A stretch of DNA of 64,000 nt from Rhodospirillaceae bacterium. GTDB taxonomy: Bacteria; Pseudomonadota; Alphaproteobacteria; CACIAM-22H2. This document shows positions 19,334-38,734 of the stretch, piece by piece (position 1 is the stretch's first letter; every line of letters starts with the position of its first letter). Location: the NCBI GenBank assembly GCA_022843945.1, contig JALHMR010000009.1, positions 62,001-126,000 on the forward strand. Reading direction: 5' to 3'. The notes under the pieces are model-generated. The model did no database searches, was not told the DNA's origin, and saw only the letters and a program-made list of their open reading frames with translations. A program made the position numbers and the translations under genes.

Positions 19334-19494
19334 TTTAGCTTCCGAATCACCGCGGGTGGCCCGGGGGATCGAATGAACGCGCAGGGACCGATGTTTACTG
19401 CCGCCATTTCAGGTCGTTCCGCGCGCTAACCGCCCCAACAGACACGACACGGGCGCGGGGTCGCGTGCCTGATCGATCGAGGCGAGACGACACG

Positions 19495-20487
19495 ATGGCA
19501 GAGCGCATCCTGATCACGGGCATTACCGGCTTCGTCGGCTCTCATCTCGCCGATTTCGTCACCGGCCTGGGCAGCAACTACAAGGTCTACGGGACCAAGC
19601 GCTGGCACCTGTCGCGCCAGGACCATATCCGCCATCTGCTCGACCGGATCGAGCTGGTCGACTGCGACCTGACCGACGCCATCGGCGTGCGCGCGCTCAT
19701 GGACAAGGTTCAGCCGGATCGCATCTTCCACTGCGCGGCGGAGAGTTTCGTCAGCCCGTCCTGGCAGAACCCGCACCGCTACATGAACGTCAATTACCAC
19801 ACGACGGTGAACCTGCTGGACTGCCTGCGCGCCGACAAATCGAAGGCGCCGCTGCATCTGCCGGGTTCGGGCGAGGAATACGGCGATATCAGCGAGGCCG
19901 AGCTGCCGATCACGCCGGAAACGGTGCTGCGGCCGGTGAACCCCTACGCCGTCACCAAGATCGCCCAGGACCTCATCGGCTACGTCTACTGGGCGTCCTA
20001 CGGCGTCAACGTCATCCGCACCCGCGCCTTCAATCACGAAGGGCCGCGCCGCGACAAGGTGTTCGGCATCCCGTGGTACGCCTACCAGGTCGCCATGGTC
20101 GAGGCCGGCAAGATGCCGCCGCTGCTCAAGGTCGGGCACATCGACGATCGCCGGAATTTCACCCACGTGCTCGACATGGTCGAGGCGTATTGGATCGCCA
20201 GCACCAAGTGCAAGCCGGGTGAGCTCTACCTTGTCGGCTCGGAAGCGCCGGAGACGATCTACACCTTCCGCCAGGCGCTGGAGATGCTGATCGGCATGTC
20301 GAAGGTCAAGGGCATCCGCCACGAGACCGATCCGCAATATGTCCGGCCGACGCAGGTTCCTCGCCTGATCGCCGATACCAGCAAGTTCCGCAAGGCGACC
20401 GGCTGGGAGCCGAAGATCCCGTTCCAGCGCATCCTGTCGGAGACCCTCGACTATTGGCGCATGCGCGTCGCCCAGGGCACGGCGTGA
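19495..20487 (+). CDS. GDP-mannose 4,6-dehydratase-like NAD-dependent enzyme
   Basis: A 330-residue extended SDR. The cofactor motif is GITGFVGSHL, followed by FHCAAESFVSPSW, SGEEYGD and the catalytic YAVTK, with RAFNHEGPRR typical of GDP-mannose 4,6-dehydratases and their relatives (GMD, and the GDP-heptose dehydratase DmhA). ATG 19495 is the first in-frame start that leaves a normal N-terminus. It is immediately followed by an HddA-type kinase gene, which makes an activated D-manno-heptose (or octose) a plausible substrate; GDP-mannose is the conservative alternative. First gene of an 11-gene operon running to 29549. Confidence 0.8.
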   Translation: MAERILITGITGFVGSHLADFVTGLGSNYKVYGTKRWHLSRQDHIRHLLDRIELVDCDLTDAIGVRALMDKVQPDRIFHCAAESFVSPSWQNPHRYMNVNYHTTVNLLDCLRADKSKAPLHLPGSGEEYGDISEAELPITPETVLRPVNPYAVTKIAQDLIGYVYWASYGVNVIRTRAFNHEGPRRDKVFGIPWYAYQVAMVEAGKMPPLLKVGHIDDRRNFTHVLDMVEAYWIASTKCKPGELYLVGSEAPETIYTFRQALEMLIGMSKVKGIRHETDPQYVRPTQVPRLIADTSKFRKATGWEPKIPFQRILSETLDYWRMRVAQGTA

Positions 20488-20532: not shown

Positions 20533-21612
20533 GTGAAAGCCGATCGCAAGACCGCGTTCGCGGCGCGCTCGGCGCTGGCCGCGCCGCATATCCCGCGATG
20601 GTCCGCGTCGGCGCCGAAATTCGTCGTGACCGCGGCGCCGCTGCGCATCAGCTTTGCCGGCGGCGGCTCGGACCTGCCGGAATTCTATCGCAGCGATTTT
20701 GGCGCCGTGCTCAGCACGACGATCGACAAGTTCATCTACGTCACGGTGAAGCGGCACGGCGCGCTGTTCACCGAGAACTACCGCCTGAACTACTTCTCGA
20801 GCGAGCACGTCCAGCGCCTCGACGAGATCGAGAACGCGATCATCCGCGAATGCCTGCGCCTGGTGCCGCTCGACCCGCCGCTCTACATCAGCACGGTCGG
20901 CGATCTGCCGGCCTCATCGGGCCTCGGCAGCTCGAGCAGCTTCGCCGTCGGCCTGATCAGCGCGCTGCACGCCATGCGCGGCGAGCGCGCGCCGCCGGTG
21001 CGCATCTACGAGGAAGCGGCCGAAGTCGAGATCGAGATCCTGAAGCGGCCGATCGGCAAGCAGGACCACGCGGCCGCGGCCTTCGGCGGCCTCAACTACA
21101 TCCGCTTCCGCTCGGACGACAGCATCGCCCTCGAGCCGCTCAATCTCGGGCCGCACGAGATCGACCACGTCTTCAAGAATCTGCAGTTCTTCTGGACCGG
21201 TATCACGCGCGACGCCGGTCAGATCCTTGCCGAACAGCAGAGCAACACGGCGGGCAAGCTGGTGCCCGATCTCAAGGAGATTCGCGATCAGGCGCACGAG
21301 CTGCGCAACCTGATGCGCGATTCTCTGGACATGGAGGCTTTCGGCGGCGTTCTCGACCGCGGCTGGCAACTCAAGCGCGGCCTCGCCACCAATATCACCA
21401 ACCCGCAGATCGACGCCTGGTACGACGCGGCGCGCGCCGCCGGTGCCTGGGGCGGCAAGCTGATGGGAGCCGGCGGCGGCGGATTCCTGCTCTTCGTGAC
21501 GCCGCCCGAGTTGCACTCCAAGGTGCGTGCCGCCCTGCGCGGCCTCGAGGAAGTCCCGATCGCCTTCGAGCCGACGGGCGTGCGTCTGCTGCTGCCGCCC
21601 GCCAGCGAGTAG
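20533..21612 (+). CDS. hddA: HddA-like GHMP kinase (heptose 7-phosphate 1-kinase type)
   Basis: A GHMP-superfamily kinase of up to 359 residues. The substrate loop APLRISFAGGGSDLPEF, the ATP loop LPASSGLGSSSSFAVGL and the C-terminal MGAGGGGFLLF are all typical of D-glycero-alpha-D-manno-heptose 7-phosphate kinase (HddA) and of the lincomycin octose kinase LmbP. Homologues usually begin close to the APLRIS strand; a downstream GTG in FVVTAAPLRIS may be the real start, and the first 35 residues encoded from GTG 20533 could be untranslated. The product would be a sugar 1,7- (or 1,8-) bisphosphate for the GmhB domain. Confidence 0.85.
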   Translation: MKADRKTAFAARSALAAPHIPRWSASAPKFVVTAAPLRISFAGGGSDLPEFYRSDFGAVLSTTIDKFIYVTVKRHGALFTENYRLNYFSSEHVQRLDEIENAIIRECLRLVPLDPPLYISTVGDLPASSGLGSSSSFAVGLISALHAMRGERAPPVRIYEEAAEVEIEILKRPIGKQDHAAAAFGGLNYIRFRSDDSIALEPLNLGPHEIDHVFKNLQFFWTGITRDAGQILAEQQSNTAGKLVPDLKEIRDQAHELRNLMRDSLDMEAFGGVLDRGWQLKRGLATNITNPQIDAWYDAARAAGAWGGKLMGAGGGGFLLFVTPPELHSKVRAALRGLEEVPIAFEPTGVRLLLPPASE

Positions 21613-21617
21613 GGACG

Positions 21618-22574
21618 ATGTCCCGCGCCATCGCCGAACCGATTCTGGTCACCGGAGCGTCCGGCATTGTCGGCGCCAACCTTGTCCACGAGCTGGTCAA
21701 GGGCGGCTACCGGCCGCATGCGCTGATGCGCGAGACGAGCAGCCGGATGCGGCTGGCGCCGGTTGCCGACCGGGTCGGCATCGTCACCAGCGACCTGCTG
21801 GAGGCGGAGCACCTGCGCGACGCGGTCGGCGCCCTGGCGCCCCGGACGGTCTTCCATCTGGCCACCAGCATTTTCAATCCGCCGCGCCTGACGTCGGCCG
21901 AGCATCTCGAGATCAACACCCTGGGAGCACTCAACCTGCTCGAGGCGCTGCGCGACATGCGCGGCTGCCGGGTCGTGGTCACGAATTCGGCGGCGATCTA
22001 CGGTGGCGGCCGGCGCATTCCCGAAACGGCGCCGCTGCAGCCGTCGACGGTCTACGGCGCGACCAAGGCGGCCGCCGGGCTTCTGGCGCAGACCTACGCG
22101 CGTCTTTACGGGCTGAGCCTGGTCGAGCTGCGGCTGTTCACGACCTATGGGCCGTGGGAGCGTCCGGCGCGTCTGGTGCCCGATGCCATTCTCTCGGCGC
22201 TGGGCGGCCGCGATCTTCAGATCAGCGGCGGCACCCAGGAGCGCGATTTCGTCTACAGCGAGGACGCGAGCGAGGCGCTCATGCTGGCCGGCTCGGCCGA
22301 CGTCGCCTCCGGCTCGGTCTTTAATATCAGCTCCGGCCACGGCATGAAGATCGCCGACATGGCGCGCACCATTCTCGACCTGATGGGCAACCCGGTCGAG
22401 CTCAAGATCGGCGCGCGCCAGATGCGGCCGGATGAGATCATGGAAATTTCCGGCGACAACTCGGCGGCCGCCAGCGGCCTTGGCTGGCGTCCCCGGCACG
22501 ATCTGCGCGCCGGGCTGGAAAAGACCATCGCCTGGTATCGCTCGAACCGCGAACTAGCCCTCCAATTGAGCTGA
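21618..22574 (+). CDS. NAD-dependent epimerase/dehydratase family protein
   Basis: A 318-residue extended SDR. GASGIVGANL binds the cofactor; Ser in TNSAAIYGG and YGATK form the active site. The C-terminal RPDEIMEISGDNSAAASGLGW is the usual substrate-domain end. Five bases after the kinase stop and five before the methyltransferase start, it belongs to the same operon. It could be a 4-reductase or an epimerase acting after the GMD-like dehydratase; sequence alone does not decide. Confidence 0.8.
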   Translation: MSRAIAEPILVTGASGIVGANLVHELVKGGYRPHALMRETSSRMRLAPVADRVGIVTSDLLEAEHLRDAVGALAPRTVFHLATSIFNPPRLTSAEHLEINTLGALNLLEALRDMRGCRVVVTNSAAIYGGGRRIPETAPLQPSTVYGATKAAAGLLAQTYARLYGLSLVELRLFTTYGPWERPARLVPDAILSALGGRDLQISGGTQERDFVYSEDASEALMLAGSADVASGSVFNISSGHGMKIADMARTILDLMGNPVELKIGARQMRPDEIMEISGDNSAAASGLGWRPRHDLRAGLEKTIAWYRSNRELALQLS

Positions 22575-22579
22575 GTGTC

Positions 22580-23812
22580 ATGACCCAAGCGCCGCGCAAT
22601 TGCCTTGTCTGCCGGTCAAACCGCGTCGAGCTGTTCCTCGATCTCGGATCGACGACGCTGGCCAACAAATTCCTGGCGCGCGACGAGCTGGGGGGGAAGG
22701 AGCCGGCCTATCCGTTGCGTGTCGGCTTCTGCCAGGACTGCGGCCATGTGCAGCTCCTCGATGCGGTGCCGCCGACCGCCATGTTCGACGACTATCTCTA
22801 CATCTCCTCGGCCTCGGACACGCTGAAGGGCCATCTGACGGGCCTCGCCGATACCGTTGTCGAGCGCCGCAAGCTGCCGAAGGGGTCTTTCGTCGTCGAT
22901 ATCGGCTCGAATGACGGCACCCTGCTGTCGGGCTACAAGCGCCACGGCATGAAGATGCTGGGCGTCGATCCGGCGGCCAACCTGGCCGAGCGCGCGCGCG
23001 CCATCGGGGTCGAGACGCTGACCGCCTATTTCGGGCCGGAGACGGCGCGCAAGGTGCGCGAGACGCACGGCGTTGCAGCGGCGATCACGGCGACCAACGT
23101 GTTCCCGCATCTGCCCGATCTTCCCGGCCTGGTGAAGGGCCTGGATGTGCTGCTCGCCGAGGACGGTCTTTTCGTTCTCGAGGCGCACTATCTCCAGGAC
23201 CTTCTCGACGCGGTCGCCTTCGATACGGTCTATCACGAGCATTGCTCCTATTGGGCGCTGGGCCCGATGACGCGCCTGTTCGGCGATCACGGCTTCGAGA
23301 TCGTCGATGTCGAGCGCCTGCCGATCCATCACGGCCAGCTGCGCGCCTGGGTCGGCCGTCGCGGCCGCCACAAGGTCAATCCGCGTGTCGAAGCCCTGCT
23401 GGCCGATGAGCGGGCCAAGGGCATCGACAAGATCGAGACCTACCGCGCCTTCGCCCAGCGGGCCCTGGCTCTCAAGACCGAGCTCAACCGGGTCGTCGAC
23501 AAGCTGCTGGCCGAGCGCAAGACGATTGCCGCCTACGGCGCGCCGGCCAAAGGCAACACGCTGCTGACCTTCCTGGGTCTCGGCCCCGATCGCATTTCCT
23601 ACATTGCCGACCGTTCGCCGCTGAAACAGGGCCGCTATACGCCCGGCACGCACATACCGGTCGTGCCGCCCGAGCGGCTGCTGGCCGACCAGCCCGATTA
23701 CGCGCTGCTGCTCGCCTGGAACTTCGCCGACGAGATCATGGCGCAGCAGGCGGAGTACCGCCGGCGCGGCGGCCGCTTCATCGTGCCCGTTCCCGAAGTC
23801 CGCGTCCTCTGA
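22580..23812 (+). CDS. Sugar C-methyltransferase-like protein (TylCIII/TcaB9 architecture)
   Basis: A 410-residue three-domain methyltransferase. The N-terminal zinc finger has Cys8, Cys11, Cys53 and Cys56. The central SAM domain has VVDIGSNDGTLLSGY. The conserved catalytic stretch is VYHEHCSYW. The C-terminal Rossmann-like domain contains AAYGAPAKGNTLL. This is the architecture of NDP-4-keto-sugar C3-methyltransferases such as TcaB9 and TylCIII, which make branched-chain deoxysugars. It therefore implies a keto-sugar intermediate, consistent with the dehydratase-type genes upstream in the operon. Confidence 0.85.
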   Translation: MTQAPRNCLVCRSNRVELFLDLGSTTLANKFLARDELGGKEPAYPLRVGFCQDCGHVQLLDAVPPTAMFDDYLYISSASDTLKGHLTGLADTVVERRKLPKGSFVVDIGSNDGTLLSGYKRHGMKMLGVDPAANLAERARAIGVETLTAYFGPETARKVRETHGVAAAITATNVFPHLPDLPGLVKGLDVLLAEDGLFVLEAHYLQDLLDAVAFDTVYHEHCSYWALGPMTRLFGDHGFEIVDVERLPIHHGQLRAWVGRRGRHKVNPRVEALLADERAKGIDKIETYRAFAQRALALKTELNRVVDKLLAERKTIAAYGAPAKGNTLLTFLGLGPDRISYIADRSPLKQGRYTPGTHIPVVPPERLLADQPDYALLLAWNFADEIMAQQAEYRRRGGRFIVPVPEVRVL

Positions 23813-23840: not shown

Positions 23841-24560
23841 GTGCGCATTTCCCTGACCGACGACGACGGCAAGCCCGTCGATGCCTACAGCGAGGAGGGC
23901 CTGCGCGCCCTGGCCCATCTGTGGACCAAGGTCGCCTGCGAGCATCGCATGATGTACCAGCCGACCTGGTTGGGCATCCCGATCATCCAGTACGCCGAAG
24001 ACGTCGTCATGATGCAGGAGCTGATCTGGCGCCTGCGCCCGGACGTGATCGTGGAGACGGGCATTGCCCATGGCGGCTCGGCCATCTTCTACGCCTCGCT
24101 TCTCGAGCTGATCGGTCACGGCAAGGTCGTGTGCGTCGATATCGATATCCGGGCGCATAATCGCAAGGCGATCGAGGCGCATCCGATGAAGAGCCGCATC
24201 GAGCTCATTGAGGGCAGCTCGGTCGCGCCGGAGACCGTGGCCAAGGTCAAGGCGGCCGTCGGCAACGCCAAGAAGGTCCTGGTGACGCTCGATTCCAACC
24301 ACTCGGCCGCTCATGTGCGGCAGGAGATCCAGCTCTACGCGCCGCTGGTCTCCGACGACAGCTACCTCGTGGTGATGGACGGCGCGCAGGCCATCATGCA
24401 CGACATCCCGCGTGGCAAGGCCGAGTGGCAGCATGACAACCCCCTCGTCGCCATCGATGAATTTCTGAAGGCCAATCCGGCGTGGGAGAGCGATCCGCAT
24501 TTCACGCGGATGCTGGTGACGGCGAGCCCGCGGGGATATCTGCGGCGCGTTCGCCGCTGA
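23841..24560 (+). CDS. Cephalosporin hydroxylase (CmcI/RhlB)-family methyltransferase-like protein
   Basis: A 239-residue class I methyltransferase-fold protein of the CmcI family, named for a cephamycin enzyme. VIVETGIAHGGSAIFYAS is the SAM-binding motif, VCVDIDIRAHN the second, and VTLDSNHSAAHV a metal-site-like third. The name 'hydroxylase' is historical: crystal structures of CmcI show a methyltransferase fold. Members are frequent in surface-glycan clusters and are thought to O-methylate sugars. It starts with GTG at 23841, 28 bases after the preceding gene. Confidence 0.75.
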   Translation: MRISLTDDDGKPVDAYSEEGLRALAHLWTKVACEHRMMYQPTWLGIPIIQYAEDVVMMQELIWRLRPDVIVETGIAHGGSAIFYASLLELIGHGKVVCVDIDIRAHNRKAIEAHPMKSRIELIEGSSVAPETVAKVKAAVGNAKKVLVTLDSNHSAAHVRQEIQLYAPLVSDDSYLVVMDGAQAIMHDIPRGKAEWQHDNPLVAIDEFLKANPAWESDPHFTRMLVTASPRGYLRRVRR

Positions 24561-24567
24561 GCGGCCC

Positions 24568-25344
24568 ATGCCCCGGGGCAGCACCCATTCGGCGGGCCTG
24601 GCGGGCAAGCGCGTTCTGGTCACCGGCGCCGGCACCGGTATCGGTGCGGCCATAGCCCAGGCGCTCGGCGCGAGCGGCGCCGTCGTTGCCGTGCACTACC
24701 GGCGCAGCCGCCAGGAGGCCGGGGAAGTGGTCCGGCGCATCGTCGAGGGCGGCGGCAAGGCCGAGCTGTTCCAGGCCGATCTCACCAAGCGCGCCTCCCG
24801 CGAAGGGCTGATGCCCGCCGTCGTCCGCCGCCTGGGCGGCCTCGACATCCTGGTGAACAACGCCGGCTGGGTCGTCGACTACAAGGATTTCCGCCAGCTC
24901 CGCGACAAGGCCTGGGACCAGACGTTCGAACTCAACGCCAAGGCCGCTTTCTTCCTCGCCCAGGCCGCGTGGCCGCACCTGGAGAAGGCCGGCGGTGGGC
25001 GCATCGTCAACATCAGCACGGCCGCCGTCCGCTACAGCGGCGGCGCCAGCAGCGTCCACTACGTGGCCTCCAAGGCGGCGCTGGAAGCCGTGACCCTGAG
25101 CCTCGCCAAGATCGGCGCCCCGGCGAATATCCTGGTCAACGCGATCCGCTGCGGAGTCATCGCCACCGACATGCACACGCGCATCGCCGGCTACGACCGT
25201 GCGAAGTTCGTCAAGCGCGCCAAACAGGTGCCCTTGGGCCGTGCCGGCCAGCCGGAGGAGGTTGCCGGCCTGGTCAGCTACCTGGTGGGCGCCACCGGCG
25301 CCTTCGTGACCGGCCAGATCATCGCCATCTCGGGCGGGGATTGA
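24568..25344 (+). CDS. Short-chain dehydrogenase/reductase (SDR), copy 1
   Basis: A 258-residue classical SDR. TGAGTGIGAAI (cofactor), NNAG, the active-site Ser in NISTAAVRYSG and the Tyr/Lys in HYVASK are all present. It is closely similar to the SDR at 33539-34342, sharing TRIAGYD, PLGRAG and a C-terminal TGQII(A/S)(I/V)SGGD. It probably reduces or oxidises a keto group on the island's sugar or on an acyl side chain. It is in the 11-gene operon between the CmcI-like gene and another epimerase. Confidence 0.85.
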   Translation: MPRGSTHSAGLAGKRVLVTGAGTGIGAAIAQALGASGAVVAVHYRRSRQEAGEVVRRIVEGGGKAELFQADLTKRASREGLMPAVVRRLGGLDILVNNAGWVVDYKDFRQLRDKAWDQTFELNAKAAFFLAQAAWPHLEKAGGGRIVNISTAAVRYSGGASSVHYVASKAALEAVTLSLAKIGAPANILVNAIRCGVIATDMHTRIAGYDRAKFVKRAKQVPLGRAGQPEEVAGLVSYLVGATGAFVTGQIIAISGGD

Positions 25345-25352
25345 GTTCCGTC

Positions 25353-26243
25353 ATGCGCCTGTTCGTCTCCGGCATGGGAAGCTTCATCGGTCGCGAGCTG
25401 GTCCGCCAGTGCGAGGCACGGGGCGTCGCCACCGCCGGCATCGACCTGGTTGCCACGGGACAGCCTGGCACGGCGGTGGGCGATATCCGCGACAAGCAGG
25501 TCGGCAGCGCGATCCCGGACGGCACCGATGCGGTGGTCCATCTCGCGGCGCTGTCGCGCGACCCGGATTGCCGCGGCCGCATCGGCCCCTGCTTCGATGC
25601 CAATGTCATGGGCACGCTCAATCTTGCCGAGGCGGCGGTGGCGCGCGGCGTGCGCCAGCTCATCTTCGCCTCGAGCGAATGGGTCTATGCCAAGTTCCCG
25701 CCCGGCGGCGAAGCGGACGAAGTTACGCCGATCAGCGTCGCGGACCATGAATCGGAATACGCGCTCTCGAAGACCGTCGCCGAAGCGGCGCTCAAGGTGT
25801 TCGCGGCACGGACCGGATGTGCCGTCACGCTGCTGCGCTTCGGGATCGTCTACGGGCCGCGGCGCGAGAACTGGTCGGCGGTCGAGGCGCTGACCGATTC
25901 AGTGGCACGGAACGACGTGGTCAAGGTCGGCTCGCGCGCCACCGCGCGGCGCTTCATCCATGTGCGCGACATCGCCGGCGGGATTCTCGCCGCCACCGGG
26001 AGAAGCGGCTGCGAGATCTTCAATATCCAGGGGCCCAGGCTGGTATCGCTGGGCGATGTCATCGAGACGGCGGGGCGGGTGCTCGGCCGGCGGCCGCGGA
26101 TCGAGGAGACGGCGCCCGGCTCGCCCAGCGTGCGGCCAGTGGCCTCGTCGCGCAGCGAGCAGGCGCTGGGCTGGAAGGCCGCGATCGGCATCGAGGAGGG
26201 AATCCGCGACGTCGCGGATTTCCTCGGGCTGGTCCGCTCATGA
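25353..26243 (+). CDS. NAD(P)-dependent epimerase/dehydratase family protein
   Basis: A 296-residue extended SDR. GMGSFIGREL is a slightly unusual cofactor motif; the active site is Ser in ASSEWVY and YALSK. RFGIVYGPR and RRFIHVRDIAGG are family segments. ATG 25353 is eight bases past the SDR stop. It overlaps the following methyltransferase by ATGA, showing coupling. Reaction unknown; probably a 4-keto-sugar reductase or epimerase. Confidence 0.8.
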   Translation: MRLFVSGMGSFIGRELVRQCEARGVATAGIDLVATGQPGTAVGDIRDKQVGSAIPDGTDAVVHLAALSRDPDCRGRIGPCFDANVMGTLNLAEAAVARGVRQLIFASSEWVYAKFPPGGEADEVTPISVADHESEYALSKTVAEAALKVFAARTGCAVTLLRFGIVYGPRRENWSAVEALTDSVARNDVVKVGSRATARRFIHVRDIAGGILAATGRSGCEIFNIQGPRLVSLGDVIETAGRVLGRRPRIEETAPGSPSVRPVASSRSEQALGWKAAIGIEEGIRDVADFLGLVRS

Positions 26244-27106
26244 ACGGGATCCGCCCGTCGAGCGGCGCCAAGGCCTGCCTGGTCTGCGGCGATACGCGCT
26301 GGTCGGAGGTCCGTTCCTACGCCAGCCCCGACGTTTACGAGAAAACCGTCGGCGTTACAGCCGAGGGCTATTGGCGCCAGTGGGTGAAATGCGACGGCTG
26401 CGGCCTGCACTATTCGCGCTATTCGCGCGGCGACGGCGTGCTCGACGATCTCTATCGCGCGGACTATCGCGACAAGGCCGCGGCCTGGCGCGGCGGCGCC
26501 TCGACGCGCGACATCTTCGCCAAGGTCATCGCCCTGCCGCCCGAACAATCCGAGACCAAGGAGCGGGTGGCCTGGATCAAGGGCGAGATCGCCGCGCTTG
26601 AAGCGGCGGGCATCGTCAAGCGCCGCGCCGGGGCGCGCCGGCTGCTGGATATCGGCGGCGCCACCGGGGTGTTCGCCTACGAGTTCCGCGACGCCGAGTG
26701 GCTGAGCCACGTCATCGACCCGGCGGAGACCGGCCGGTTCCTTGAAACCGATCACGGCATACCCTACCGCCAGCAGGATTACGCGCCCGGCGCCTTCGAT
26801 GCCCCTTTTGACCTCGTCTCGATGATCTTCGTGCTCGAGCATCTGCGCGAACCGGAGGCGGCGCTGCGGGCGGCCCGCGACGACGTGACGGCCGGTGGGC
26901 TGCTCTACATCGAGGTTCCGGACGCCCTGGCCTTCGCCCACAAGCCGCCGGAAGACGACATCTTCTGCTCCTGCCATCTCTGGATGTTCGATCCGCTGTC
27001 GCTGACCGCGTTGATCCATCGCGCCGGCTTCGAAGTGGCGTCGCTGCGCCGGACGACGACCCGGCGCGGGCATCTGGCGCTGCGAGCGCTGGCGGTGCGG
27101 CCATGA
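26240..27106 (+). CDS. Class I SAM-dependent methyltransferase with N-terminal zinc-finger-like region
   Basis: A 288-residue protein. Cys13/Cys16 (CLVC) and Cys51/Cys54 (CDGC) form a likely zinc site as in sugar methyltransferases. The SAM motif is LLDIGGATGVFAYEF, and the post-motif FVLEHLREPEAAL is typical of the Methyltransf_23 group. ATGA overlaps join it to the gene before and the gene after. Like the enzyme at 22580 it has an N-terminal CxxC pair, but it lacks the C-terminal Rossmann domain. O- or C-methylation of an activated sugar is the likely role. Confidence 0.8.
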   Translation: MNGIRPSSGAKACLVCGDTRWSEVRSYASPDVYEKTVGVTAEGYWRQWVKCDGCGLHYSRYSRGDGVLDDLYRADYRDKAAAWRGGASTRDIFAKVIALPPEQSETKERVAWIKGEIAALEAAGIVKRRAGARRLLDIGGATGVFAYEFRDAEWLSHVIDPAETGRFLETDHGIPYRQQDYAPGAFDAPFDLVSMIFVLEHLREPEAALRAARDDVTAGGLLYIEVPDALAFAHKPPEDDIFCSCHLWMFDPLSLTALIHRAGFEVASLRRTTTRRGHLALRALAVRP

Positions 27107-27678
27107 GCGGGGCGCGCTTCGCCCTCAAGGAACGGCCGCTGGCCGGTGCGTTCGAGGTGGCGCTCGACGCGTATCGCGACGAGCGCGGCACGCTTCTGCG
27201 CGCCTTCGACGGCGACGTGATGGCGGCGGCCGGGGTCTCGTTTTCCCTGATGCAGCATGTCGTGCACACGACCGCGCAGCGCAACGTGGTGCGCGGCCTG
27301 CATGTGCAGGCGCCGCCGGCTACCGAAGCCAAGCTCATCGTGCCGCTCGCCGGCCGCATGTTCTGGGTCTTCGTCGACCTGCGGCGGGGGAGCAAGACCT
27401 TCGGACGCTGGGATTCGCTGGAGCTCGATGCCGAGGCCGGGCGCGGCCTCCTGGTGCCGCGGGGCTTCGCCCATGGCTGCCTGTCGCTGACCGGCAACGT
27501 GACGCTCAGCATCCTCTCGGATCAGCGTTTCCAGCCCGAGCACGGCGCCGGAATCCGTTGGGACGATCCCGAGATCGGCATCGCCTGGCCGTCGCTCGGC
27601 ACGCCACCGGCGCTGTCGGCCGAGCATGCGGGCTATCCGACGTTTCGCGACTTCGTCGCGCGAATTGGGGCATTGTAG
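27103..27678 (+). CDS. RmlC-family sugar epimerase-like protein, catalytic Tyr replaced by Phe
   Basis: A 191-residue cupin of the dTDP-4-dehydrorhamnose 3,5-epimerase family. The catalytic His is kept in VVRGLHVQ (codon 27301-27303), and GIRWDDP closes the fold. The position of the catalytic Tyr reads SDQRFQPEHG, so Tyr is replaced by Phe (codon 27529-27531). In RmlC relatives this Tyr is the general acid; its absence is linked in several families to a changed epimerisation pattern or to isomerase activity. With the intact RmlC at 16191 the island may therefore carry two different stereochemical steps. ATGA overlap with the preceding gene. Confidence 0.75.
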   Translation: MSGARFALKERPLAGAFEVALDAYRDERGTLLRAFDGDVMAAAGVSFSLMQHVVHTTAQRNVVRGLHVQAPPATEAKLIVPLAGRMFWVFVDLRRGSKTFGRWDSLELDAEAGRGLLVPRGFAHGCLSLTGNVTLSILSDQRFQPEHGAGIRWDDPEIGIAWPSLGTPPALSAEHAGYPTFRDFVARIGAL

Positions 27679-27681
27679 GCC

Positions 27682-28611
27682 ATGGCCAGACCCAACGAAG
27701 CCGAGTGGGCGCTCGCAGCCGATGTCCTGCGCGTCCGGCTTTCGCAGCTGCTCATCAACGAGGGGCTGAAGCGGCGCGAGTTCAAGGTCCCGGTCCACCT
27801 GGCGCTTGGCCATGAAGCGATCGCCACGGCGGTCAGCGCGGCGATGGGCACGCCCGACGCTCTGTGCCTCACCCATCGCAACCTGCACTACAACCTGGCG
27901 CGCGGCAGCTCGCTCGCCGCGGAAATCGCCGAGCTGCGTTTGGAGACGAGCGGCGTGTCGGGCGGCGCCATGGGTTGCATGAACATGATCAACCCCAAGG
28001 CCGGCATCCCTTACTCGTCGAGCATCCTCGGCAACTGCCTGAGCGTGTCGACCGGCGTGGCACTGGCCAGCACGGTGACGCGCGACGGCTCCGTGACCTT
28101 CGTCGCGACCGGCGACGGCGCGATCGAGGAGGGCTCGTTCTGGGAGACGCTCGAATTCCACAAATCCTTCGCGCTCCCGGCCATCGTCGTGGTGGAGAAT
28201 AACGGCTGGGCGATGTGGACGAAGATCGACGAGCGCCGCTGCCCGATCGATATCGCCAGCGCCGCCAAGGCGTTCGACGCGCCGTATGTGCGGCTGGCCG
28301 GCAACGATGTCGTCGCCTATGCCGAGACGCTGAGCCGGCTGCGTGACGGCATGACCGGGAAACCGGGACCGGTGGTGGTCGAGGTCGCCCTGTCGACGCT
28401 CGGGGATATCCACGTCCCGGTGGCCGGCGGGGCGCCGCGATACGTCAACTATCACCACGGCCCGGCGCCGGAGACGACGCTGGCGGACTGGCCGGTGCTG
28501 CGCGAGAGCGACGCCGACCCGGTCTTCGCGCTGACGCAGCGCTTCGACCGCGACCGGCTGCAGGCGCTGGCGCGCAGCCTGCGCGCGGAGCTCGATCCCC
28601 AATGTCGCTGA
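27682..28611 (+). CDS. Thiamine-diphosphate E1 alpha-like subunit, pair 1
   Basis: A 309-residue homologue of the alpha subunit of 2-oxo acid dehydrogenase E1 and of the N-terminal half of transketolase. The thiamine-diphosphate motif runs from GDGAIEEG to VVVENN. The usual GGSMH loop reads GGAMGCMNM, so the loop His is absent. The next gene (10-base overlap) encodes the matching beta subunit. No lipoyl acyltransferase or E3 gene is near, so it probably works as a stand-alone ketol or acyl transferase on a sugar or small ketoacid. It is shorter than the second alpha subunit at 37670. Confidence 0.8.
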   Translation: MARPNEAEWALAADVLRVRLSQLLINEGLKRREFKVPVHLALGHEAIATAVSAAMGTPDALCLTHRNLHYNLARGSSLAAEIAELRLETSGVSGGAMGCMNMINPKAGIPYSSSILGNCLSVSTGVALASTVTRDGSVTFVATGDGAIEEGSFWETLEFHKSFALPAIVVVENNGWAMWTKIDERRCPIDIASAAKAFDAPYVRLAGNDVVAYAETLSRLRDGMTGKPGPVVVEVALSTLGDIHVPVAGGAPRYVNYHHGPAPETTLADWPVLRESDADPVFALTQRFDRDRLQALARSLRAELDPQCR

Positions 28612-29549
28612 CCTATATCAGCCACATCAACGCGCTGATCCGCGCCCGCGTCGAGCGGACGCCGAAGCTCGTCTGCTACGGCCAGAACATCACCGCCGGC
28701 TCCTGCCTGTCGGGCCTGACGCGCGACCTCAAGCCCGGGCCGGATAGCCGCGTCATCAACACGCAGAACAGCGAGTACACGCTGATCGGTCTGGGCTTCG
28801 GGCTGATGATGCGCGGCGTGTCCGGCATCTACTTCATGAAGCAGCAGGACTTCCTGCTCTTCGGGCTCGATCACCTGGTCAATACCTGGAACGTGGTGCG
28901 CACGCTCAATCCGTCCGCCTCGTACACGGCGCTGAGCATCGTGGTCGATAGCGGCTACGAGGGCCCGCAGTCACGGCTCAACAATTTCGCCGATTTCTGC
29001 TCGATGGCCCGCGTCCAGGGCTACGCCATCACCAACCACGACGACGCCGCCATCGTCCTCGACCGGCACCTGGTGGCGCCGGGGTTCCGGCTGATCGGCG
29101 TCAGCCAGCGGCTGTTCCGCGAGACGCCGCTCCATTTCGACGGGGCGGCGGCCGCCGATCCGGCGGGCACCGTGGTGCGCTATGCCGGCGGCACGGACGC
29201 GACCATCGTCTGCTTCAACTTCAGCCTGCCGCAGGGCGCCGGGCTGCACCGGGCGCTGGCGACGAGCAGGATCAGCGCGTCGCTGTTCTCGGCCCCCGGC
29301 ATGCTGATCGACGATTGGAGTGCCATCCTCGCCGATGTCGGGCGGACGCGGCGGCTGGTGATCCTCGACGATAGCCGGAGCAGCCATAAGACCTCGCAGC
29401 AGCTCGAGCTGGCGGCGCGCCGCGCCGGGGCGGCGGACACCATCGTGGTGCGCGAACGCTCGGCGGCGGACCAGGTTTTTGCGCCCAATGCCGACACCTT
29501 CACCGTCGACGCCGCCGGCGTTGCCCGGGAGCTCGGCCGCAAGGCTTGA
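28602..29549 (+). CDS. Thiamine-diphosphate E1 beta-like subunit (transketolase C-terminal type), pair 1
   Basis: A 315-residue beta-subunit homologue. The cofactor-activating Glu is visible in NTQNSEYTLIGLGFGL, matching the TPISEQG segment of pyruvate-dehydrogenase beta chains. The C-terminal domain has DATIVCFNFSLPQGAG and RRLVILDDSRSSH. It overlaps the alpha subunit by 10 bases, indicating coupled translation and a heterotetramer. It is quite diverged from the second beta chain at 38735, so the two pairs probably have different substrates. Last gene of the 11-gene operon; the next gene is convergent. Confidence 0.8.
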   Translation: MSLTYISHINALIRARVERTPKLVCYGQNITAGSCLSGLTRDLKPGPDSRVINTQNSEYTLIGLGFGLMMRGVSGIYFMKQQDFLLFGLDHLVNTWNVVRTLNPSASYTALSIVVDSGYEGPQSRLNNFADFCSMARVQGYAITNHDDAAIVLDRHLVAPGFRLIGVSQRLFRETPLHFDGAAAADPAGTVVRYAGGTDATIVCFNFSLPQGAGLHRALATSRISASLFSAPGMLIDDWSAILADVGRTRRLVILDDSRSSHKTSQQLELAARRAGAADTIVVRERSAADQVFAPNADTFTVDAAGVARELGRKA

Positions 29550-30497: not shown

Positions 30498-31388
30498 TCA
30501 GTAACTCGCGGTCGCGTGGCGGGCGGCAACACCGCTCGGCCCGCTCTCCTGGATCCGTGTCGGCGCGCCAGCGATGTCGTAGGCGATCGCCGAGTCCCGC
30601 TGCTCGCGCGGCAGATCCGCGGTCGGGGCAAAGCGGATCTCGAAGTTGCGGCGCTGGCCACGCATCCCGGGACGGGTATAGGTCCGGTGCACCACCCGCG
30701 AGGTGAGCAACAGGACATCGCCGAGGTCGAGCTCCGGATGCCAGGTATTCTCCAGGTTGAAAACCGCCCTGGCCATCTCCTCGCTGATCTCGAGATTGCC
30801 GTACAGCTTGCCCTGGGTTGACGGGTCGCCGTGCGGAAGAATGCCCGTCAGGCTCCAGGGCACGAATTCGACCGACGGCGCATCCCGGCCGCAGGGGTCG
30901 AGCGGGAACCAGAAATTCAACACCGTGACGTCGTGCAGGCGCATCACGGCGCTGTCCTGGTGGAAGGGAACCGGCCTTTCGCTCTGCGTGGCCTGCTGGC
31001 GCCTTGTGTGGGTCGTCGGCAGGAGCAGGGACACACGCGGGCCCAGGAGCCCGCGAACGACGTCGACCAGCGGCGTGCGGAGCACGGCATCGATCATGTG
31101 ATCGGCAAGTCGCGTCCCGTCGGCAAGCGTGTACTCGTCGTGCTCGAGGGGGCGGAGAATCCCGTAGCGGTGGCAGCGCTTCAGGTCATCCTCGGACAGC
31201 GTGCCCTCGGCCGCGCGCCGGTCCATTTCGGCGTAGAGCTCGGCCAGGCGATCGCGAAATAGCGTGGCCCGCGAGCGGTCATGGGCGCCCCGGATCAGGC
31301 AGCAGCCATGGGTCCGCAGGGTCGCCACGACCTCGCCGGGGGAGCTTTGCCCGGCCGAGAACGTTAACTTTGTATCAAATTTTACCAT
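30498..31388 (-). CDS. Phytanoyl-CoA dioxygenase (PhyH)-family 2-oxoglutarate oxygenase
   Basis: A 296-residue Fe(II)/2-oxoglutarate oxygenase. The metal triad is clear: HQD in VPFHQDSAVM and the distal His in SRVVHRTYTRP. The 2-oxoglutarate Arg is in RRNFEIRFAP. LLLPTTHTRRQQATQSERP and RLHDVTVLNFWFPLDP are family segments. Such enzymes hydroxylate, epoxidise or oxidise small molecules and sugar-linked groups. First gene of a two-gene minus-strand unit with an epimerase-like gene. Upstream is the promoter region shared divergently with the B12 radical-SAM gene. Confidence 0.8.
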   Translation of the reverse strand: MVKFDTKLTFSAGQSSPGEVVATLRTHGCCLIRGAHDRSRATLFRDRLAELYAEMDRRAAEGTLSEDDLKRCHRYGILRPLEHDEYTLADGTRLADHMIDAVLRTPLVDVVRGLLGPRVSLLLPTTHTRRQQATQSERPVPFHQDSAVMRLHDVTVLNFWFPLDPCGRDAPSVEFVPWSLTGILPHGDPSTQGKLYGNLEISEEMARAVFNLENTWHPELDLGDVLLLTSRVVHRTYTRPGMRGQRRNFEIRFAPTADLPREQRDSAIAYDIAGAPTRIQESGPSGVAARHATASY

Positions 31389-31578: not shown

Positions 31579-33483
31579 ATGGCACCCGTTACGTCGTTAT
31601 TGGCCCGGCCTCCGGCGAAGCCTGATTCGGCCGCCGTTCGCGCGTTCCTCGACAAGATTTTTCCCCGCGGCAAGATCGAGCGCGTCCTTCTGGTCAATCC
31701 GCCGGATGGAACCTCGGAGCTGTTCCGGATCGGAACGGCGCGCCGGCGCCGCTACACGAACTATCCTCCGTACGGGCTCGGCGTGATTGCGCAGCATCTG
31801 CGCGCCATCGGTGTCGAGCCGCGCGTCCTCAACCTCAACCATGAGGTCCTGCAGGCGGCGCGACTGGCCTCGACCGAGGAAGATTTCAGCTACGACAAGA
31901 TCTGGCAGGACAAGCTCAGCGAAGCGATCGCCGAGTTCGGTCCGGACCTCATCGGCGTGACCTGCATGTTCACGATGACCCATCTGTCGCTGAAGCGCGT
32001 CTGCGAGCACGCGTCGCTGACCGGCGTCCCGGTGGCCATCGGCGGCGTTCACGTCACCAACGATGTCGAGCGCGTGCTCGATGATATTCCCTGGGCCCGG
32101 ATCGCGTTCCTGCGCGAAGGCGACCTCGCCATCAAGCGCTTCTGCCGGGCGGTCGCCGGCGAGGAAGACTTCGATCAGCTGGGGCAGGTCATTCTCGACA
32201 GCGGCCCGGAGCGGTTCCGCTTCACCCGCGAGTGTCAGCCCGATGCGGCTGAAATGGACGTGATCCCGGCCTACGAGCTTCTCGACGTCTCGAACCTGTC
32301 GCGCGAAGGGGTGATCGGCAACTTCCACGGCTTCCGAACCCCCGATACGCGCTTTGCAACCGTGCTCTCGAACCGCGGCTGCCGCGCCCAGTGCACCTTC
32401 TGCAGCGTTCGTAACTTCAACGGCAAGACCGTGCGCCAGCGCTCGGTCGACTCGGTGCTCGACGAACTCAGCATGCTCCGCCACGAGCACGGCATCGGCC
32501 ATTTCGTGTGGCTCGACGACGATCTGCTGAAGGATGATGCCCGTGCCCTGGCACTGTTCAACGGCATGGTCCGACGCAATCTCGGCATGACCTGGGACGC
32601 GACCAACGGCGTTATCGCCGCCTCGTGCTCGGACGAGATCGTGCACGCCATGCGCGACAGCGGCTGCATCGCCCTCAATATCGGCATGGAATCCGGCAAC
32701 CCGACGGTCCTCCGCCAGGTGAAGAAGCCCGGCACGCTGAAGAACTTCCTCGCGGCCGCCGAAGTGTTCCATCGCTATCCGGAAATCCACGCGCGGGTTT
32801 TTTTGATGATCGGTTTCCCCGGCGAGACCATGGGGATGATCAACGATACGATCAACGTCGCGCGCCAGATGGATCTCGACTGGTACGGGATCACGACGCT
32901 GCAGCCGCTGCCCAACACGCCCATCTACGATTCCATGGTCGAGCAGGGCCTGATCCAGGGCGTCGGCAGCCAGGAAGTGCGCTTCAACTCCGGCGCCTAC
33001 GGCAAGCAGGACGAAGTTGATCTCGGCGTGCGCCTGGCGACCAAGAATTTCGCCGACGCGTTCGCCTCAATCCCGCTCGATGCGATCCCGAACAAGCAGC
33101 AGCTCCAGGACATCTGGTTCTTCATGAACTACCACCTCAATTTCCACCGGCTGTTCTCCGAGACCCGGCCGATGAAGATCGAGCAGCAGTTCATGAACCT
33201 GCGCGCCCTGTCCGACGTCATCTCGCCGGAGCACGGCCTCGCGCTCTATTTCACCGGCTACCTGCAGCACAAGCTGCACGGCCGGATCGACCCGGACATC
33301 GTCGACCGGCTGTCGGCCAAGCTCGATGCGTCGGAGTACTGGCGGGAGCGCTTTAGCGCGTTCGGCCTGTCGCCCGACGACCTCCGGAACGCCAATTTCC
33401 GGAACAAGGAGATCCCGCGCCTTCTTCCGGGCCAGCTTCCGAGCGACCATCGCCGTTACGAGGACACCGTTACCGAGGCATAG
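31579..33483 (+). CDS. B12-binding-domain radical SAM protein
   Basis: A 634-residue radical-SAM protein of the cobalamin-dependent type. Residues about 30-210 form a B12-binding-like Rossmann fold (PPYGLGVIAQHLRA, DLIGVTCMFTM, VAIGGVHVT). The radical-SAM core follows with Cys268, Cys272 and Cys275 in NRGCRAQCTFC. The long C-terminal region (about 470-634) has no family I recognise. B12-radical-SAM enzymes methylate unactivated carbons or perform rearrangements; a sugar carbon is an attractive target here but unproven. The ATG at 31579 was chosen for its Shine-Dalgarno sequence; the frame is open further upstream. Confidence 0.8.
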   Translation: MAPVTSLLARPPAKPDSAAVRAFLDKIFPRGKIERVLLVNPPDGTSELFRIGTARRRRYTNYPPYGLGVIAQHLRAIGVEPRVLNLNHEVLQAARLASTEEDFSYDKIWQDKLSEAIAEFGPDLIGVTCMFTMTHLSLKRVCEHASLTGVPVAIGGVHVTNDVERVLDDIPWARIAFLREGDLAIKRFCRAVAGEEDFDQLGQVILDSGPERFRFTRECQPDAAEMDVIPAYELLDVSNLSREGVIGNFHGFRTPDTRFATVLSNRGCRAQCTFCSVRNFNGKTVRQRSVDSVLDELSMLRHEHGIGHFVWLDDDLLKDDARALALFNGMVRRNLGMTWDATNGVIAASCSDEIVHAMRDSGCIALNIGMESGNPTVLRQVKKPGTLKNFLAAAEVFHRYPEIHARVFLMIGFPGETMGMINDTINVARQMDLDWYGITTLQPLPNTPIYDSMVEQGLIQGVGSQEVRFNSGAYGKQDEVDLGVRLATKNFADAFASIPLDAIPNKQQLQDIWFFMNYHLNFHRLFSETRPMKIEQQFMNLRALSDVISPEHGLALYFTGYLQHKLHGRIDPDIVDRLSAKLDASEYWRERFSAFGLSPDDLRNANFRNKEIPRLLPGQLPSDHRRYEDTVTEA

Positions 33484-33538: not shown

Positions 33539-34342
33539 ATGCCTGCGTCCTCTCCCGGCGGCCCTTTTATCCGCTTCGATCGCGACCACGCCAATCTGCG
33601 GGGTAAGCGCGTCCTGGTGACCGGCGCCGGCCGCGGCATGGGTCTGGCCATCGCCGAAGCCTTCGCCGCGGCGGGAGCCACCGTCGCCGCCCATCATCTG
33701 CAGCCTCAGGCCGAGGTCGACGAGGCGCTGAAGGTCCTGCGGGGCCACGGCGGACGAGCGGAGGGGTTCAAGGCCAATCTTCTCGAGCCGGGTTCGCCGG
33801 AGACGCTTGTCAGCGAGGTGGCGGCGGCGCTGGGCGGCATCGACGTGCTGGTCAACAATGCCGGGGGCATCGCGCAGTACACGGATTTCCGCGAACTGCC
33901 GATCGAGGAGTGGAACCTGTCCCTGGCGCTCAACGCAACGGCGCCGTTTCTGCTGTCCCGCGCGGTCTGGCCGCATATGCAGAAGGCCGGCGGCGGACGC
34001 ATCGTCAATATCTCCAGTTGCTCGGTCGGGCACGGCGGCAGCGGCTCGTCGCTGCATTACGTGACGGGAAAGGCGGCGATCGAGGCCATCACCAAGACGC
34101 TCGCCAAGGCCGGTGCCAAGGACAACATCCTGGTCAACGCCGTTCGGCCGGGCGTCATCGATACCGGGATGAGCACGCGCATCGCCGGCTATGACGAAGC
34201 CCGCTACAAGGCGCGGCTGGCGATGATCCCGCTGGGACGGGCCGGCTCTCCCCACGAGATCGCCGGCATGGTCGCGTTCCTGGCCTCGAGCGGCGGCGAT
34301 TTCATGACCGGCCAGATCATCAGCGTCTCAGGCGGCGACTAG
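33539..34342 (+). CDS. Short-chain dehydrogenase/reductase (SDR), copy 2
   Basis: A 267-residue classical SDR with TGAGRGMGLAI, NNAG, Ser in NISSCSVGHGG and HYVTGK. It is a close paralogue of the SDR at 24568-25344. It follows the B12-radical-SAM gene by 55 bases. Its stop and that of the convergent HddC-GmhB gene are the two readings of the same CTAG at 34339-34342. Probably a keto-sugar or keto-acyl reductase of the same pathway. Confidence 0.85.
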   Translation: MPASSPGGPFIRFDRDHANLRGKRVLVTGAGRGMGLAIAEAFAAAGATVAAHHLQPQAEVDEALKVLRGHGGRAEGFKANLLEPGSPETLVSEVAAALGGIDVLVNNAGGIAQYTDFRELPIEEWNLSLALNATAPFLLSRAVWPHMQKAGGGRIVNISSCSVGHGGSGSSLHYVTGKAAIEAITKTLAKAGAKDNILVNAVRPGVIDTGMSTRIAGYDEARYKARLAMIPLGRAGSPHEIAGMVAFLASSGGDFMTGQIISVSGGD

Positions 34343-35544
34343 GGCGGCCGGTCGAGCAGCTCCGCCGCCGCGCGCGCGAGCGGCATCGCTTCGTCGATCA
34401 TGCGAAAACGGCAACCGGCGGCCGCGGCGGCTTCGCCGTCGCGCGTGTCGTCGCCCAGGAACCAGCTCCGCGACAGGTCGAAGTGATGCTCGCGCTGGGC
34501 CTGGAACAGCATGCCGGGCTTGGGCTTGCGGCAGTCGCAGTTGTCGTCCCAGTGATGGGGGCAGTGATAGATGGCGTCGATCCGGCCGCCTGTGGCTTCG
34601 GCGTCGCGGGTCATATGGGCATGGATCTCGGCGAGGTCGGCCTCGCTCATGGCACCCCGCGCGATGCCGGCCTGGTTGGTGATGACGATGATGCGCCAGC
34701 CGGCGGCGGCGAAACGCGCGATTGCCTGGCGCGCATCCGGCATCCACTGCCATTCCGCCCAGCTCCGCACATAGGTGCCTTGCGGCATCTTGCGATTGAG
34801 CACGCCGTCGCGATCGAGGAGTACCGTCGGGCGGAAGCGCAGGAACTCGGCCGTGATCGGCAGCCGCTTGTGATCGCCGACGCTGTAGTAGCGGTGGTCC
34901 GTGCGGTAGGCGAGCAACTGTCGCTCCGCCACGAGCTGCGGGTACAAGGTCTTCTCGAAGGAGATGTTCTCGCCGCGCGGCAGGCGCGCGACCGTGTCCT
35001 TGCGTACGATCATGAAGCCGATATCGACGCCGCTGAGGTCGGCTTCGGTGCGCGACTTGTCGTAGAGCGCGACGCGGTTGTCGGCACCGATCCGCAGGTT
35101 GTCGCGCGTATAGCCGTCGCGGTTGTTGTAGACCGTGACCAGCATCTCGGCGCCGGCTGCGGTGTAGGCCTGCCACATCCTGTCGAACGGCATCGGCCAG
35201 TAGTTGTCGCAGTAGAGCAGGAGAAAGACGGGGTCGAGCCGGTCGATCGCTCTCGTGATGCGCAGGCCGGTCTCGTCGTCGACCGGCGATACGGCATAGT
35301 CGATGGCGACACCCCAGCGTGTGCCGTCGCCGAAATGCTCCCTGACAACCTCCGGAAGATAGCCGAGCAGCAGGAGGATCCGGCGGAAGCCCTGGTCGCG
35401 CAGCTGCTCGATCAGGTATTCGAGGAACGGCCGGCCGTGAAACTCGATCATCGGCTTGGGCCGGGTGTCGGTGAGGGGCTTCAGACGGGTACCCCGTCCA
35501 CCGGCGAGGATCACGGCCTGGGTGGGCCGCTCCGGGAGACTCAC
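34339..35544 (-). CDS. hddC: Fused HddC-like nucleotidyltransferase and GmhB-like phosphatase
   Basis: A 401-residue two-domain protein. Residues 1 to about 225 are a nucleotidyltransferase with AVILAGGRGTRLKPLTDTRP and the second Lys in RPKPMIEF, most like D-glycero-alpha-D-manno-heptose 1-phosphate guanylyltransferase (HddC). About 240 to 401 are a GmhB phosphatase with VLLDRDGVLN, VITNQAG, the zinc loop HCPHHWDDNCDC, RKPKPGM and FLGDDTRDGEAA. The two final activation steps of the GDP-D-manno-heptose route (dephosphorylation and guanylylation) are thus in one chain. It forms a minus-strand pair with the downstream-transcribed partner's upstream gene, overlapping the PhyH gene at 35541 by ATGA. 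The kinase HddA is at 20533. Confidence 0.88.
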   Translation of the reverse strand: MSLPERPTQAVILAGGRGTRLKPLTDTRPKPMIEFHGRPFLEYLIEQLRDQGFRRILLLLGYLPEVVREHFGDGTRWGVAIDYAVSPVDDETGLRITRAIDRLDPVFLLLYCDNYWPMPFDRMWQAYTAAGAEMLVTVYNNRDGYTRDNLRIGADNRVALYDKSRTEADLSGVDIGFMIVRKDTVARLPRGENISFEKTLYPQLVAERQLLAYRTDHRYYSVGDHKRLPITAEFLRFRPTVLLDRDGVLNRKMPQGTYVRSWAEWQWMPDARQAIARFAAAGWRIIVITNQAGIARGAMSEADLAEIHAHMTRDAEATGGRIDAIYHCPHHWDDNCDCRKPKPGMLFQAQREHHFDLSRSWFLGDDTRDGEAAAAAGCRFRMIDEAMPLARAAAELLDRPP

Positions 35545-36551
35545 GGCTCGACCATCAGCCGGTTGATGTACTTGTGGCGGAGCGTTTCCGGGATGCGGCC
35601 GGCCAGCGCGCCGCGCGGCAGCGGCATGATGCTGTCGCGATAGTTGGTCAGGTTCTTGTACAGTCCGTAGCGGAACCAGACGACCAGGCGGTTGGACTTC
35701 GGGATATCGCCCTTGTGCAGGCCGTAGGTGTCCTCGATCACGGCGCTGCCGGCCTCGGCGGTCACCGTGTCGATGGCCCCGGTAAACAGATGTGCACAGG
35801 GCTCGTTCAGGTCGGCGTTCTCGGCGAACAGCCCGTCGAAATCGACCTTCGGCATCTTCTCCGGCTGGCCGGCGAACTGCTGCTGCCAGGCCGCCGTCTT
35901 CTCGGCGAAGACCTTGTTCATCATCTCGATGCGATGGGTGCCGGGGATGTAGTAGTGCGCGCCGTTCTCCGGCGTGAGATCGGTGAGAAACAGGAACATG
36001 GTGCAGAAGCGGAAGTCATCGAAGTCGCGATGGAAGGTCTGGATGCCGGGCCACGGCCGGTTCTGGGCCGGGAAGCTCCAGAAGGCGTTGACCGAATAGA
36101 GCGTCGGCGGGCAGCCGAGATAGCTCTCGACCAGCGACAGGATGTCCTCGCGGTTGGCGAGCTCGGGCAGGAACGGCGCGTTGAGCACGTCGGCGATGGT
36201 GTAGGAGCCGTAATGGCCGCGCTCGGCGCATTGCTCGATGGTGCGCGGCGTGCCGTCGCTTTTGCCGGCGACATGCGCGGCGAAGCAGGGGCGCGAGCGG
36301 AAATAGGCGTGCACGGCCTCGACCTGGTCGCGCTCGAGCACGCGGCCCAGCTGGGCGATGCCGCGGTTGCGCAGCATGTGCGGCTTGGTGTCATAGGCGC
36401 CGGGTGCGGGACTGCGCATGGTGTCCGGCAGCAGCCGGTTGGTCTGGTCGACCAGGAGCTGGGCCACCGTGGGCCGGGCGCGGTAATGCATGCCCAGCTG
36501 AATATCGGTGAGGACCTTGCTGAGCCGTAGCGCGTCGAGTTCGCCAAACAT
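35541..36551 (-). CDS. Phytanoyl-CoA dioxygenase (PhyH)-family protein
   Basis: A 336-residue 2-oxoglutarate oxygenase homologue. HxD is in QTFHRDFDDF and the distal His in YGLHKGD; an Arg-rich NRLVVWFRYGLYKN strand could bind 2-oxoglutarate. YIPGTHR is a family segment. The ATG at 36549-36551 (MFGELDALRL) is preferred over an upstream start whose extra residues look like noncoding translation. First gene of the pair with the HddC-GmhB fusion, to which it is coupled by an ATGA overlap; oxidation of the GDP-sugar product is a plausible role. Confidence 0.8.
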   Translation of the reverse strand: MFGELDALRLSKVLTDIQLGMHYRARPTVAQLLVDQTNRLLPDTMRSPAPGAYDTKPHMLRNRGIAQLGRVLERDQVEAVHAYFRSRPCFAAHVAGKSDGTPRTIEQCAERGHYGSYTIADVLNAPFLPELANREDILSLVESYLGCPPTLYSVNAFWSFPAQNRPWPGIQTFHRDFDDFRFCTMFLFLTDLTPENGAHYYIPGTHRIEMMNKVFAEKTAAWQQQFAGQPEKMPKVDFDGLFAENADLNEPCAHLFTGAIDTVTAEAGSAVIEDTYGLHKGDIPKSNRLVVWFRYGLYKNLTNYRDSIMPLPRGALAGRIPETLRHKYINRLMVEP

Positions 36552-36673
36552 CCGAGTCGGGGCCGGGGCAATTAAAACCGACGCAAAGTATACACCAAGA
36601 CCGCCGGGCGGTGAGGCCGCTGGGGCAGCGTAGCTTTGCAATGGCCGGTCTAATTGGCTAGGGTCGCGGCTCC

Positions 36674-38731: not shown

Positions 38732-38734
38732 GAC

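Follow-up and report, generated by a model that had tools for sequence, protein, structure and literature searches.

The window analysed here is a stretch of 64,000 nucleotides from the genome of a Rhodospirillaceae bacterium (contig JALHMR010000009.1, positions 62,001 to 126,000). It contains two open reading frames, both intact and overlapping by 10 bases, that resemble the alpha and beta subunits of thiamine diphosphate (ThDP)-dependent E1 enzymes and lie exactly where a previous sequence-only reading had placed them. That reading had called them the first such pair, correctly so, since a second E1 pair follows about 8 kb downstream (37670-39751). The pair and the genes that bear on its interpretation are arranged as follows:

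19465-20487, plus strand: GDP-sugar SDR, GDP-6-deoxy-lyxo-hexulose reductase/GDP-heptose 4,6-dehydratase-like (2pk3, 208 bits; 7us5, 168 bits)
20533-21612, plus strand: GHMP kinase, HddA-like, i.e., resembling D-glycero-D-manno-heptose 7-phosphate kinase (NF049969, 129 bits, short of the cut-off of 600; 3k85, 150 bits)
21618-22574, plus strand: extended SDR of the epimerase family (PF01370, 154 bits; 39-50% identity in three loci)
22580-23812, plus strand: sugar 3-C-methyltransferase-like protein (335 bits to a D-mycarose 3-C-methyltransferase structure)
23841-24560, plus strand: RMNT/CmcI-type O-methyltransferase (PF04989, 242 bits; relatives in 4 of 10 loci)
24568-25344, plus strand: classical SDR (48-50% identical relative in the Magnetospirillum and G087 loci)
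25353-26243, plus strand: extended SDR, nucleotide-sugar oxidoreductase/epimerase (41-51% identity; synteny)
26240-27106, plus strand: methyltransferase, Methyltransf_23 (no conserved counterpart at the other loci)
27103-27678, plus strand: RmlC-like sugar epimerase (PF00908, 150 bits)
27682-28611, plus strand: alpha subunit, E1-alpha-like, ThDP pyrophosphate domain, 309 residues (Pfam profile search, PF00676 E1_dh, 107 bits; AF2 model; 40-60% identity in 10 relatives)
28602-29549, plus strand: beta subunit, E1-beta-like, pyrimidine domain, activating Glu58, 315 residues (AF2 model; 39-54% identity in 10 relatives)
34339-35544, minus strand: nucleotidyltransferase fused to a HAD phosphatase, HddC/GmhB-like (41-64% identity in four loci)

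The structure of alpha predicted by AlphaFold (pLDDT 89) is closest to that of human PDH E1-alpha (E 8e-16). For beta, a Pfam search at 1e-3 returned no match, and the score against the PDH beta model is only 27 bits. Despite this, its predicted structure (pLDDT 87) finds PDH E1-beta 1w85_B as the closest entry in the PDB (E 5.6e-16), followed by human, Thermus, and branched-chain E1-beta, and the structure prediction therefore identifies it as an E1-beta beyond doubt.

The sequence-only reading had described the cofactor motif and the activating glutamate as kept. Indeed, the ThDP motif GDG(144-146)...ENN(172-174) of alpha and Glu58 of beta, as well as E149-E150 and R66 of alpha, are invariant in 11 out of 11 members of the family described below. 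Its observation of an altered GGSMH loop also holds, as the window's alpha has GGAMGCMN at this position; the family consensus is GSMN, and all 11 aligned members have G(S/C)MN. Two further blocks are constant across the family and differ from canonical E1, namely HRN..YN.AR in place of YR.HG in alpha, and K80-Q81-x-D83-F84 in beta. The PQHSQ motif of beta is replaced by (P/L)QS(S/R/C), with His changed to Ser in every member; the same histidine is kept in the alignment by the genome's own PDH and by seven other orphan E1-like pairs. The title of one PDB entry assigns a role in reductive acylation to His291-alpha and His146-beta' of branched-chain E1, and from the PQHSQ motif we take the lost beta histidine to occupy the position of His146. 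Since H258 of alpha, where two alignments differ, may substitute for the histidine of the canonical loop, we count a clear loss for just one of the two histidines of acylation.

A scan of 84,980 genomes revealed seven loci with a related beta (41-56% identical): Magnetospirillum sp. SS-4, a MAG labelled archaeon, a Thaumarchaeota MAG, a Nitrosopumilales MAG, Liptonbacteria, Omnitrophota, and one unassigned bacterium. Alpha lies directly upstream of beta in all of them and is 38-62% identical to the window's alpha. Three further members, G087, G540, and G799, were obtained by genome sampling, the first being from the same phylum as the window's genome. As the relatives are syntenic and spread across several phyla, the pair is more than a chance occurrence. 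When the query genomes are left out, the sampling frequency is 1/397, 1/249, and 1/284 genomes, i.e., less than 1%. In a concatenated alpha-beta tree, all 11 members fall into one clade with 100% ultrafast bootstrap, set apart from all other pairs by a stem of 2.14 substitutions per site. Judged by these sequences, the family is a separate, deep clade of E1-like enzymes in bacteria and archaea that was previously unlabelled. Its rarity and patchy spread suggest horizontal gene transfer. No members were found in viral contigs, a plasmid search matched only other E1-like proteins (23-33% identical), and the relatives within the same order are only canonical or other E1-like proteins (20-27% identical). 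A viral or phage origin was considered and rejected, as the phage matches listed are only 26-33% identical over partial stretches.

Nucleotide-sugar genes are present at every family locus, and heptose-type genes at nearly all. In 8 of the 10 relatives, an orthologue of the SDR at 25353-26243 immediately precedes alpha or is parted from it by an RmlC-like gene only; the orthologue is absent in Magnetospirillum, and the contig of locus L041 ends at that point. The window has both a methyltransferase and an RmlC-like gene in between, and G087 likewise has an RmlC-like gene there, with the order SDR-RmlC-alpha-beta in locus L046. Given that this SDR lacks the Glu of 4,6-dehydratases while conserving the S(S/T)EWVY and YALxK motifs, we expect it to be a reductase, dehydrogenase, or epimerase. 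The HddA-like kinase is found in 9 of the 10 family loci (30-58% identity) and in 31 of 150 Pseudomonadota genomes in a genome-level control, corresponding to a binomial value of 5.6e-6, which is rough because it ignores shared ancestry and the clustering of sugar genes and draws its control from Pseudomonadota only. Relatives of the 3-C-methyltransferase-like gene occur in 6 of the 10 loci (33-67%). The window, Magnetospirillum, and G087 have an entire set of genes in common, comprising the GDP-sugar SDR at 19465 (74-82% identical), the HddA-like kinase (54-58%), the SDR at 21618 (39-50%), the 3-C-methyltransferase-like gene (64-67%), and the HddC/GmhB fusion (61-64%). Curated families provide the best matches for the heptose enzymes, all of them below the cut-offs, and a GDP-heptose pathway at the locus is therefore likely rather than shown.

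A B12-binding radical SAM enzyme of the window (31579-33483) could possibly carry out further C-methylation; a 25% identical relative precedes the pair in G087, and in Magnetospirillum the pair is followed by a gene of similar appearance. Three PhyH-type dioxygenase genes belong to one cluster (18483-19238, plus strand; 30498-31388 and 35541-36641, minus strand). A radical SAM/SPASM protein (13588-14700, minus strand) is 57% identical to L059:4696-5799 in the G422 locus, and G422 and the window's genome, which have this protein in common, are very different in size and content.

The second orphan E1 pair of the window (37670-38731 and 38735-39751) belongs to a different family, having the PQH histidine in beta and GSQE in place of GSMH in alpha. 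Similar pairs are found in G799 (two), G422, G425, contig C2 of the same genome, and an Azospirillum plasmid; most of them have sugar or heptose genes close by. An SDR and a methyltransferase that flank the second-type pair in G799 are also conserved. On the Azospirillum lipoferum plasmid AZO_p6 (L056:5028-7041), the pair lies beside a DegT aminotransferase, an NAD(P)-dependent oxidoreductase, and a HAD-IIIA hydrolase, an arrangement that resembles a pathway with amination of a branch. Split transketolase-like pairs are located near second-type E1 pairs in the glycan loci L058 (G799), L059 (G422), and L060 (G425), the last confirmed by Pfam and the other two by weaker similarity.

The fold, the cofactor motifs, and the tandem genes are those of PDH and branched-chain E1, and it could be imagined that the pair serves as E1 in a 2-oxo acid dehydrogenase complex whose E2 is borrowed from another place in the genome. 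E2 genes do exist in the window's genome and in Magnetospirillum. However, although two of them are present in the window's genome (5.38 Mb, 96.7% complete), one lies beside the E1 of PDH and the other beside the E1 of OGDH, which extends to the whole genome the earlier observation that the pair has no E2 nearby. Among the other ten carriers, Magnetospirillum alone has E2 genes, and E2 (PF00198) is thus absent from 9 of the 11 carrier genomes, including G087, which is 96% complete. Completeness is unstated for most carrier MAGs, and single absences are weak evidence, but nine of them carry weight in combination. Assembly with a lipoyl E2 encoded elsewhere, named by the sequence-only reading as the finding that would speak against it, is thus contradicted for most of the family. 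In G087, G540, G421, G423, G424, and G426, alpha is also the sole strong E1_dh match. In addition to the E2 partner, the pair lacks the PQH histidine and the GGSMH loop; its alpha reaches 131.1 bits against TIGR03182, the curated equivalog of PDH E1 alpha with a cut-off of 393.85, and is 27% identical over 197 residues to the genome's own PDH alpha. The long stem of the separate clade and the sugar genes around the pair at every locus also argue against a borrowed E2. A role as a dehydrogenase component is therefore very unlikely, and we have rejected it.

A split transketolase that shuttles a two-carbon ketol unit from one sugar phosphate to another, e.g., to make sedoheptulose-7-phosphate for the adjoining heptose pathway, would fit the heptose genes near the pair, and it would likewise be a two-gene ThDP enzyme with the fold common to E1-beta and transketolase; split transketolases are indeed among the structural matches. 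We nevertheless consider this improbable, because alpha scores only 34.2 bits with the transketolase profile NF004559 (cut-off 488) compared to 131 bits with PDH E1 alpha, and because at least one related genome, G425, has distinct transketolase genes near its second-type E1 pair, in the form of a separate split transketolase pair at a locus with a GmhA-like gene; similar short pairs occur in G422 and G799. Moreover, next to its GmhA- and GmhB-like genes the window has a transaldolase-like one, and its genome holds other, longer transketolase-like E1_dh matches. Carboligation or decarboxylation could instead provide an acyloin or aldehyde as a non-sugar substituent of the glycan, since ThDP enzymes of the E1 fold also cleave and make acyloins such as acetoin (PMC12247030), and the methyltransferase, PhyH, and radical SAM genes of the window suggest heavy decoration. 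The tightest neighbour of the pair is, however, a nucleotide-sugar SDR rather than an acyl- or aldehyde-handling gene, and we regard this alternative, too, as unlikely.

There are precedents for E1-type enzymes that branch sugars. The KbDH-alpha/beta pair of kibdelomycin biosynthesis transfers acetyl from pyruvate to a ketone in vitro, and acetyl transfer from pyruvate by the E1-like pair of the aldgamycin pathway was shown by feeding and knockout (PMC12247030). The same role has been proposed for AviB1/AviB2 (avilamycin) and Pau11/Pau12 (PMC4753412), as well as for EvdU5/EvdS3 (PMC10338323). The sequence-only reading had made no reference to these pairs. Like these alpha-keto acid dehydrogenase 2 (aKADH2) pairs, the one studied here is a stand-alone two-subunit E1-like ThDP enzyme encoded within a nucleotide-sugar gene cluster. 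As compared by description rather than by sequence, the two groups differ in that aKADH2 pairs act on hexose or pentose sugars in antibiotic pathways of actinomycetes (about 120 clusters; PMC12247030), whereas the present family is found in glycan-type loci with GDP-heptose-type genes, and its hosts are Gram-negative bacteria, other phyla, and archaea. In surface polysaccharides and LPS, the known route to sugar branching is of the YerE type (PMC12247030, PMC4753412). YerE (yersiniose, LPS) places a C2 branch on a surface-polysaccharide sugar in its 4-keto nucleotide form, as would be expected here, but it is one flavoprotein chain from the decarboxylase superfamily, whereas the present enzyme consists of two E1-type chains. 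Searches of the open-licence literature for E1-type enzymes encoded in clusters for LPS, heptose, or archaeal glycans turned up no account of one.

We propose that the pair acts on its own as a carboligase and joins an acyl unit, probably the acetyl group of pyruvate, to a GDP-keto-heptose to yield a branched or longer sugar, and we assign this reading a probability of roughly 0.6. The sequence-only reading had suggested a stand-alone enzyme that transfers a two-carbon or acyl unit to a keto-sugar or extends the carbon chain. For the first part, namely that a two-subunit ThDP enzyme works by itself in sugar biosynthesis, the E2 absences, the sugar-gene context, and the lost beta histidine provide good support; the transfer itself we retain as a prediction. 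The 3-C-methyltransferase-like gene and the nearby GDP-sugar SDR imply a 4-keto nucleotide sugar, and for a ThDP carboligase in such a cluster, addition of an acyl carbanion to the ketone is the simplest reading. In the predicted scheme, which covers the quaternary structure as well as the donor, the acceptor, the product, and the sequence of steps, Glu58 of beta would activate ThDP for attack on a 2-oxo donor, most likely pyruvate, with release of CO2. The two-carbon carbanion would then add to the carbonyl group of an NDP-keto sugar, for which GDP-4-keto-(6-deoxy)heptose is the likeliest candidate. This acceptor would come from the enzymes encoded nearby, namely the kinase, the guanylyltransferase/phosphatase, and the GDP-sugar SDR, and the SDR just upstream would either generate the keto form of the acceptor or reduce the branch once it is in place. 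We expect a C-branched or lengthened sugar as the product, destined for a surface glycan. Pyruvate is favoured as the donor because the proven E1-type branching pairs use it (PMC12247030), but it is not assured, since N101 of alpha and K80-Q81 of beta are active-site residues unlike those of canonical E1.

More tentatively, the family as a whole may consist of E1-type enzymes that were transferred between bacteria and archaea and make C-branched or chain-extended heptoses, with nine carbons or more, for cell-surface glycans. For annotation, the family is a trap, as its genes would otherwise imply pyruvate dehydrogenase in genomes that lack E2. If the family-wide reading is true, an E1-type sugar-branching enzyme would be found here for the first time outside antibiotic pathways, and for the first time in archaea. 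An E1-type family in glycan loci would extend this branching chemistry to the cell surfaces of bacteria and archaea, and would predict unknown higher-carbon sugars together with a new class of C-C bond-forming catalysts.
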